DNA of 64,000 nt, from NCBI GenBank assembly GCA_947258695.1, contig CAMYJG010000003.1, positions 1-64,000 of the forward strand, given 5' to 3'. This stretch comes from an uncultured Ectothiorhodospiraceae bacterium (GTDB taxonomy: Bacteria; Pseudomonadota; Gammaproteobacteria; UBA6429; Thiohalophilaceae). This document shows positions 7,181 to 7,831 of the stretch, one piece after another. A model generated the notes under the pieces. The model worked only from the letters and a program-made list of their open reading frames with translations. It was not told where the DNA came from and did no database searches. The position numbers and the translations under genes are program-made. Position 1 is the first letter of the stretch, and each line of letters starts with the position of its first letter.

Positions 7181-7267
7181 TGGTGCCCAGGGCCGGAATC
7201 GAACCGGCACGGTGTTGCCACCGAGGGATTTTAAGTCCCTTGCGTCTACCAATTTCGCCACCTGGGC
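7181..7267 (-). tRNA. leuZ: tRNA-Leu(TAA)
   Basis: Read on the minus strand this is an 87-base class II tRNA starting GCCCAGGTGGCGAAATTGG and ending with an encoded CCA (7181-7183). The acceptor arms GCCCAGG/CCTGGGC pair fully. The anticodon loop holds TAA, there is a long variable arm, and the T-arm reads GGTTCGATTCC. Its position after tRNA-Gly and tRNA-Cys downstream of pgsA is that of E. coli leuZ. Confidence 0.96.
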
Positions 7268-7522
7268 AGATGACTTGTACTACTTTCAATACCCTGTCGT
7301 GTCTGATAGCTGTCGTTTTGTTAACGACCGTCTACCACAACGCCACCTGGGCAGATGACTTGTACTACTTTCAATACCCTGTCGCGTCTGATAGCTGTCG
7401 TTTTGTTAACGACCGTCTACCACAACGCCACCTGGGCAGATGACTTGTACTACTTTCAATACCCTGTCGCATCTGATAGCTGTCGTTTTGTTAACGACCG
7501 TCTACCACAACGCCACCTGGGC
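7268..7522 (-). repeat. Three 85-bp tandem repeats, each with a partial copy of the tRNA-Leu 5' end
   Basis: Units are 7268-7352, 7353-7437 and 7438-7522. They differ at only two positions that I can see, inside cg(t/c)(g/a)tctg. Read in the tRNA direction, each unit begins with GCCCAGGTGGCG and then GGTAGACG, which match the first about 24 bases of the adjacent tRNA-Leu with one small change in the D-loop. The other about 61 bases are unrelated to tRNA and contain a perfect 6-bp hairpin GTCGTT-AACAA-AACGAC. The array fills the whole spacer between tRNA-Cys and tRNA-Leu and abuts the tRNA-Leu 5' end without a gap, so it should be part of the same precursor RNA. The open frame on the other strand here is an artefact of the repeat. 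Confidence 0.92.
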
Positions 7523-7529
7523 TAAAAAG

Positions 7530-7604
7530 TGGAGGCGAGGATCGGATTCGAACCGACATAAGAGTGATTTGCAATCACTTGCATAGCCTTTCTGCTACCT
7601 CGCC
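7530..7604 (-). tRNA. cysT: tRNA-Cys(GCA)
   Basis: On the minus strand: GGCGAGGTAGCAGAAAGG, anticodon loop with GCA (TTGCAAA), T-arm GGTTCGAATCC and encoded CCA at 7530-7532. Length is 75 bases. It is separated from the first 85-bp repeat by 7 bases. It corresponds to E. coli cysT in position. Confidence 0.96.
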
Positions 7605-7632: not shown

Positions 7633-7647
7633 CGTCTACTACAACAT

Positions 7648-7688
7648 AAAAAAACCCCGGAGTTAGCCATTGCAGCGCCGAGGTTTTT
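7648..7688 (-). terminator. Intrinsic terminator between tRNA-Gly and tRNA-Cys
   Basis: On the minus strand AAAAACCTCGG pairs with CCGGGGTTTTT (11 pairs, one U-G) around a 17-base loop and ends in seven T. The stem is nearly symmetric, so it could work both ways. It sits just after the tRNA-Gly 3' end and would end the uvrC-pgsA-tRNA-Gly transcript. Confidence 0.75.
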
Positions 7689-7695
7689 AAGAATT

Positions 7696-7771
<76 letters not shown>

Positions 7772-7831
7772 TTCGAAGGCCGGCTATTTTATAGATACAG
7801 GCCCCAGAGTCAAGGGTTTATATGGTCTTTT

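Follow-up and report, generated by a model that had tools for sequence, protein, structure and literature searches.

What are the repeats that stand between two tRNA genes of an uncultured Ectothiorhodospiraceae bacterium, and do they serve the tRNA that follows them? The leaders of tRNAs are usually regarded as disposable. The repeats lie in a window of 64,000 nucleotides, the whole stretch of DNA that was analysed (positions 1 to 64,000 of contig CAMYJG010000003.1, assembly GCA_947258695.1). Positions 7771-7181 of the minus strand hold tRNA-Gly(GCC), tRNA-Cys(GCA) and tRNA-Leu(UAA) in the glyW-cysT-leuZ arrangement. The 262 nt gap between tRNA-Cys and tRNA-Leu(UAA) consists of three 85-bp units and a 7 nt spacer. 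Each unit combines a copy of the tRNA-Leu 5' end with a hairpin (P2) and a 3' end complementary to the 5' strand of the next unit or tRNA (P1). The features are listed below in the direction of the tRNA genes.

7786..7813, minus strand: promoter-like TTGACT-16-TAAAAT before tRNA-Gly (a consensus match only)
7696..7771, minus strand: tRNA-Gly (GCC), glyW-like
7530..7604, minus strand: tRNA-Cys (GCA), cysT-like
7438..7522, minus strand: unit 1, 85 bp, adjoins tRNA-Cys (repeat detection)
7500..7522, minus strand: tRNA-Leu 5'-end copy in unit 1, GCCCAGGTGGCGTTGTGGTAGAC (from the sequence)
7482..7498, minus strand: P2 hairpin of unit 1, GTCGTT-AACAA-AACGAC (covariation across loci)
7438..7443, minus strand: unit 1, P1 strand that can pair with nt 5-10 of unit 2 (7428-7433)
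7353..7437, minus strand: unit 2, 85 bp (repeat detection)
7415..7437, minus strand: tRNA-Leu 5'-end copy in unit 2 (from the sequence)
7397..7413, minus strand: P2 hairpin of unit 2 (covariation across loci)
7353..7358, minus strand: unit 2, P1 strand that can pair with nt 5-10 of unit 3 (7343-7348)
7268..7352, minus strand: unit 3, 85 bp, abuts tRNA-Leu (repeat detection)
7330..7352, minus strand: tRNA-Leu 5'-end copy in unit 3 (from the sequence)
7312..7328, minus strand: P2 hairpin of unit 3 (covariation across loci)
7268..7273, minus strand: unit 3, P1 strand TCATCT that can pair with AGGTGG, nt 5-10 of tRNA-Leu (7258-7263)
7181..7267, minus strand: tRNA-Leu (UAA), leuZ-like

Tandem Repeats Finder places the array at 7256-7522 (period 85, 3.1 copies, 98% matches). 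A repeat search of the window gives unit spacings of 85 and 85 and pairwise identities of 98-99%, and shuffled sequence gave no repeat matches of this kind. The copies are unlikely to be assembly duplicates because they differ by private substitutions. No units were found elsewhere when the same genome was searched. The minus strand of a unit reads GCCCAGGTGGCG-TTG-TGGTAGAC-G-[GTCGTT AACAA AACGAC]-... and terminates in ...CAAGTCATCT. The opening GCCCAGGTGGCG is identical to the tRNA-Leu 5' end at 12/12 positions, TTG stands where the tRNA-Leu D-loop has AAAT, and TGGTAGAC is again identical to tRNA-Leu. The sequence after it forms a perfect 6-bp hairpin. A unit can thus be divided into (a) the tRNA 5'-end copy, (b) TGTGGTAGAC followed by P2 and (c) the P1 3' end. 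The preliminary description had reported three 85-bp repeats between tRNA-Cys and tRNA-Leu, inside a tRNA precursor, that copy the tRNA-Leu 5' end and hold a perfect 6-bp hairpin. The sequence bears this out; the repeats fill all but 7 nt of the gap, and the hairpin is in addition conserved across loci. The units are not tRNA pseudogenes: the likeness to tRNA-Leu is confined to the first ~23 nt, and neither ARAGORN nor the Rfam tRNA model calls them as tRNA. Only the tRNAs match an Rfam family above the cut-off, the remainder being weak noise. In the open-access literature no published description of the element was found.

The units of the window lie in the tRNA-Cys–tRNA-Leu spacer, downstream of the promoter-like site before tRNA-Gly. 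Several other carriers have a -10-like TAGAAT or TATACT directly before the first unit, and in these the units may form the 5' leader of a leuZ transcript. Between tRNA-Gly and tRNA-Cys of the window (7640-7690, minus strand) there is a GC-rich inverted repeat and then a T run. The same arrangement occurs in the gly-cys spacers of many loci, and in the window's genus a TATAAT-like sequence follows it. The gly-cys-leu cluster may therefore be split into two transcripts; a search for terminators with loops of up to 8 did not return the inverted repeat. The sequence GTTGTGGTAGAC resembles GTTGTAGTAGACG of the gly-cys spacer in the window's genus, a likeness that is not general.

The element is present in scattered, distant gammaproteobacteria, and its hairpin is kept while the letters change. 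A first scan of ~85,000 genomes for two GCCCRGGTGGCG copies 50-80 nt apart yielded 41 loci. Fifteen of these come from gammaproteobacteria and have the layout GCCCRGGTGGCG-TTGTGGTAGAC-hairpin-...-AAGACCATCY in common before tRNA-Leu(UAA), L048 being the weakest. Because an exact 12-mer was demanded, the conservation of the tRNA 5'-end copy among these loci is in part a product of data selection, a bias that is only partly offset by scanning the class sample with the model and the pattern. A covariance model (R1) and a motif scan were run over 369 gammaproteobacterial genomes and identified 11 carriers (~3%) in 8 families. Every match in the 11 carriers sits directly before tRNA-Leu(UAA). An independent pattern scan, used in place of a model without the tRNA-like part, matched 11 genomes, 9 of which are carriers, and a reversed control pattern matched none. 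The scan of ~85,000 genomes and the covariance model together give ~25 gammaproteobacterial loci with the element. Copy number ranges from 1 to 3, a figure that may be off since most carriers are metagenome-assembled. Copies within a genome are more alike than copies of different genomes. Outside the tRNA-like first 12 nt, units from different families share 69-76% identity; the flanks up- and downstream of the arrays mostly stay close to 58%, which is what this aligner gives for random sequence.

Some of the leader units stand before tRNA-Leu(UAA) genes with group I introns. Such introns occupy the anticodon loop in L036, L059 and L061 (RF00028 above threshold in Rfam) and, by sequence, in L049, L056 and L110. 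A separate, similar-looking arrangement was seen in Bacteroidota and similar contigs (L039, L047, L050, L052, L057, L064, L066-L068, L070, L077, L079). There a copy of the tRNA-Leu 5' 12 nt is followed by a palindrome (e.g. CCCGATAGCTATCGGG, CCTGCCTGCCGGCAGGCAGG) and then GGTAGACG, before tRNA-Leu (GAG, CAA, CAG).

Two features of the units look selected, P2 and P1. In 22 loci the P2 arm that follows GTAGAC pairs far better with its own partner than with those of other loci. The own-arm pairing score is 262 and the best permutation 218; none of 20,000 permutations was as good, a count that is not a strict probability as the loci share ancestry. The covariation score of P2 is 0.356 against a shuffled mean of 0.217 and is reached by 0/500 shuffles. 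In a structure-guided alignment 127/132 cells are paired, and some positions show all four Watson-Crick types. These compensatory base-pair changes place the element with the structured non-coding RNAs that have a conserved fold. U.G pairs are present and A.C absent, which argues that the transcribed sense strand acts as RNA. RNAalifold recovers both P2 and P1 unprompted. Units without a good P2 occur in L048, L085 and L090.

P1 is the complementarity between the 3' end of a unit (CCAUCU, CCAUCC or UCAUCU) and nt 5-10 (RGGUGG) of the following tRNA-Leu or unit. Its summed complementarity is 304, compared with 161.7 +/- 12.1 in shuffles. Nearly all AGG-type loci have CATCT, and GGG-type loci have CCATCC, CCATTC, CCACTC, CCACCT or CCGCCT with the pairing kept. 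Leaders that lack units show a background complementarity to RGGTGG (z 3.2), in part because the CCA of tRNA-Cys abuts tRNA-Leu and pairs with TGG. The distance from the CCATCY strand to the tRNA varies between 0 and 14 nt. Units without a good P1 are found in L042, L048, L069, L084, L085 and L090. When the full array of the window is folded P1 appears at low probability, and the strand could pair with the next 5' end or, just as well, with the one that opens its own unit, so that P1 would close the unit itself. The predicted geometry puts the RNase P cleavage point in the hairpin loop, with tRNA nt 5-10 occupied.

The third part of the unit, the tRNA 5'-end copy, is probably not essential, as two genomes keep P2 and P1 without it. 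In G287 (L131) and G192 (L132) tRNA-Leu is preceded by P2, the AGGG motif and the anti-5'-end strand, and the tRNA 5'-end copy is degenerate or absent. The core of the element thus looks like a leuZ leader element. The copy would be the remnant of a tandem duplication of the leader together with the tRNA 5' half, and would keep the array recombining. At position 5 the copy has A or G, almost always in agreement with the base of the tRNA at that locus. Downstream of leuZ in L062 and L069 lies a degenerate second tRNA-Leu with a D-arm that is the unit's GCGTTGTGGTAGAC and not that of leuZ, which suggests an exchange between units and tRNA copies. A tRNA-Leu paralogue with the unit's D-arm was considered as a common source and rejected: none occurs in the 369 genomes, despite these pseudogenes. 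The tRNA-Cys–tRNA-Leu spacer of L036 (G052) is ~100 nt long, ends in TGTCATCT like the 3' end of a unit and has no recognisable tRNA 5'-end copy; it is possibly a decayed unit.

Among the same-genus genomes in which the tRNA cluster was found, G006 has one unit of 87 bp, 88% identical to those of the window. G007, G002 and G005 have no units, the tRNAs being 6-8 nt apart. At the junctions the match is exact: CTTGTTA is followed by the unit and then leuZ in G006 (L002), and directly by leuZ in G002 (L004). The junctions are accounted for by the 12-bp direct repeats, through which a unit can be lost or gained. The presence of the element in ~3% of the sampled gammaproteobacteria and its absence from close relatives indicate that it is dispensable. 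The unit-less G007 has an ORF resembling a tyrosine recombinase (L003, 1984 onward) that starts ~170 nt past the 3' end of tRNA-Leu, which suggests an integrated element at leuZ.

The preliminary description took the 5' copies for decoys. The GCCCAGG strands of the units would pair with the 3' acceptor strand of tRNA-Leu and compete with its own 5' strand. When the last unit and tRNA-Leu are folded together the unit strand does take the acceptor strand in 13/14 loci, and the tracking of the tRNA base at position 5 also fits. However, units with a shuffled body predict the swap nearly as often (mean 0.87 vs 0.91 for the real ones). The swap is therefore an effect of the energy model and not of selection, and it was rejected as evidence for decoys. 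In the full three-unit transcript of the window the true acceptor stem has P = 0.90, and G192 and G287 have dropped the copy while retaining the hairpin and the anti-5'-end sequence. These results do not support decoy pairing as the main mechanism, and we consider it very unlikely.

A neutral origin has more in its favour. Partial tandem duplication of the leuZ leader and the tRNA 5' half, varied by slippage, would account for the tandem arrays with exact boundaries and the copies that are near-identical within a genome, and the degenerate outer copies of L042, L049, L062, L074 and L078, the clean losses between congeners and the patchy distribution agree with it. The palindromes would then be kept by template switching at the DNA level rather than by selection on RNA. 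Yet conservation between families is well above that of the flanks, P1 variants retain pairing, and no DNA-level process predicts that P2 keeps its pairing as letters change, with U.G and no A.C. We regard neutral debris as a rather unlikely account. Exact empty sites, tandem arrays and the spread over unrelated families are also what would be expected if a recombinase supplied in trans had placed a short cassette site-specifically at the tRNA-Leu 5' end and used the 12-bp direct repeats for attachment. In the sampled genomes, however, the element was found neither at a second genomic site nor in mobile DNA, and the variable 0-14 nt between CCATCY and the tRNA breaks the geometry of a recombinase core. 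Phages gave no match; in viral contigs the unit itself matched nothing and the only hits were three chance ones, in unrelated sequence without tRNAs nearby, so that an origin from a phage or satellite was rejected; insertion as a mobile cassette is highly improbable. The units could instead be released by RNase P and RNase E as trans-acting small RNAs or sponges. The hairpin and the conserved motifs outside it (GTGGTAGAC, AGGGTRTA, AAGACC) fit a released RNA, and the operon type is that of the E. coli 3'ETS-LeuZ sponge of RyhB (PMC6191717). The spacer differs, however, being upstream of leuZ rather than 3' of it, no Rfam family matches, and the P1 strand varies in step with the neighbouring tRNA, pointing to a role in cis. 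A regulatory RNA derived from the spacer is accordingly given little weight, and we think it improbable.

The reading that we tentatively prefer, at a little less than even confidence, is that the array consists of tandemly repeated, structured leader elements of pre-tRNA-Leu(UAA), which act in cis and steer folding or the moment of cleavage by RNase P. The sequences show how the units are built, that P2 covaries and that P1 has both an excess of complementarity and variants with the pairing kept. They also show a fixed position before tRNA-Leu(UAA), conservation above that of the flanks and clean presence or absence among congeners. From this structure we infer the function. The leader would act in cis within the precursor, with P1 forming during transcription. 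P1 would keep the 5' strand of the tRNA from wrong pairings or delay the formation of the acceptor stem. In this way it would determine when RNase P cleaves, and the leader would be degraded afterwards. The 12-bp tRNA 5'-end copies would be the sites at which slippage or unequal recombination alters the copy number. Pairing in the leader is reported to alter the binding of bacterial RNase P (PMC9433436). A more specific version makes the leader, which copies the tRNA 5' end and carries its antisense, a new class of RNA switch that acts in cis within tRNA precursors. Alternative pairings of the 5' strand, with the leader or within the acceptor stem, would decide the maturation of tRNA-Leu(UAA), and repeat number would be the rheostat. 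That version is a distinctly speculative one, and we hold it to be improbable as well.

Repeats within tRNA transcripts are known from other systems. The tyrT (tRNA-Tyr) operon of E. coli has ~178-bp repeats with a tRNA 3' end, downstream of the tRNA. In both cases the transcript of a tRNA holds tandem repeats that include part of the neighbouring tRNA, but the units described here are ~85 bp long, carry the 5' end and lie upstream. Unlike the tyrT repeats they also have a covarying hairpin and a spread over several families. In Photobacterium phosphoreum a repetitive tRNA-Pro/tRNA-His cluster reportedly consists of repeated whole tRNA genes or pseudogenes. It shares with our array the tandem amplification of tRNA-derived sequence in a gammaproteobacterial tRNA operon, whereas here only the 5' end and a leader element are repeated. 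The 3'ETS-LeuZ of E. coli is likewise non-tRNA spacer RNA of a glyW-cysT-leuZ transcript. It is a 3' external spacer that acts as an sRNA sponge (PMC6191717), whereas the present spacer precedes leuZ. The yjdF riboswitch is also a leader RNA with tRNA-like parts, but it has a full tRNA-like fold and precedes an mRNA (PMC9142559), whereas here the leader precedes a tRNA and copies the 5' strand alone.

The units are probably an undescribed RNA element that helps to control the folding or excision of a tRNA. The covariance model R1 provides a handle for finding further cases. A conserved and covarying leader that holds both a copy and the antisense of the tRNA 5' end would make the regulated maturation of one tRNA, which decodes UUA/UUG, directly testable.
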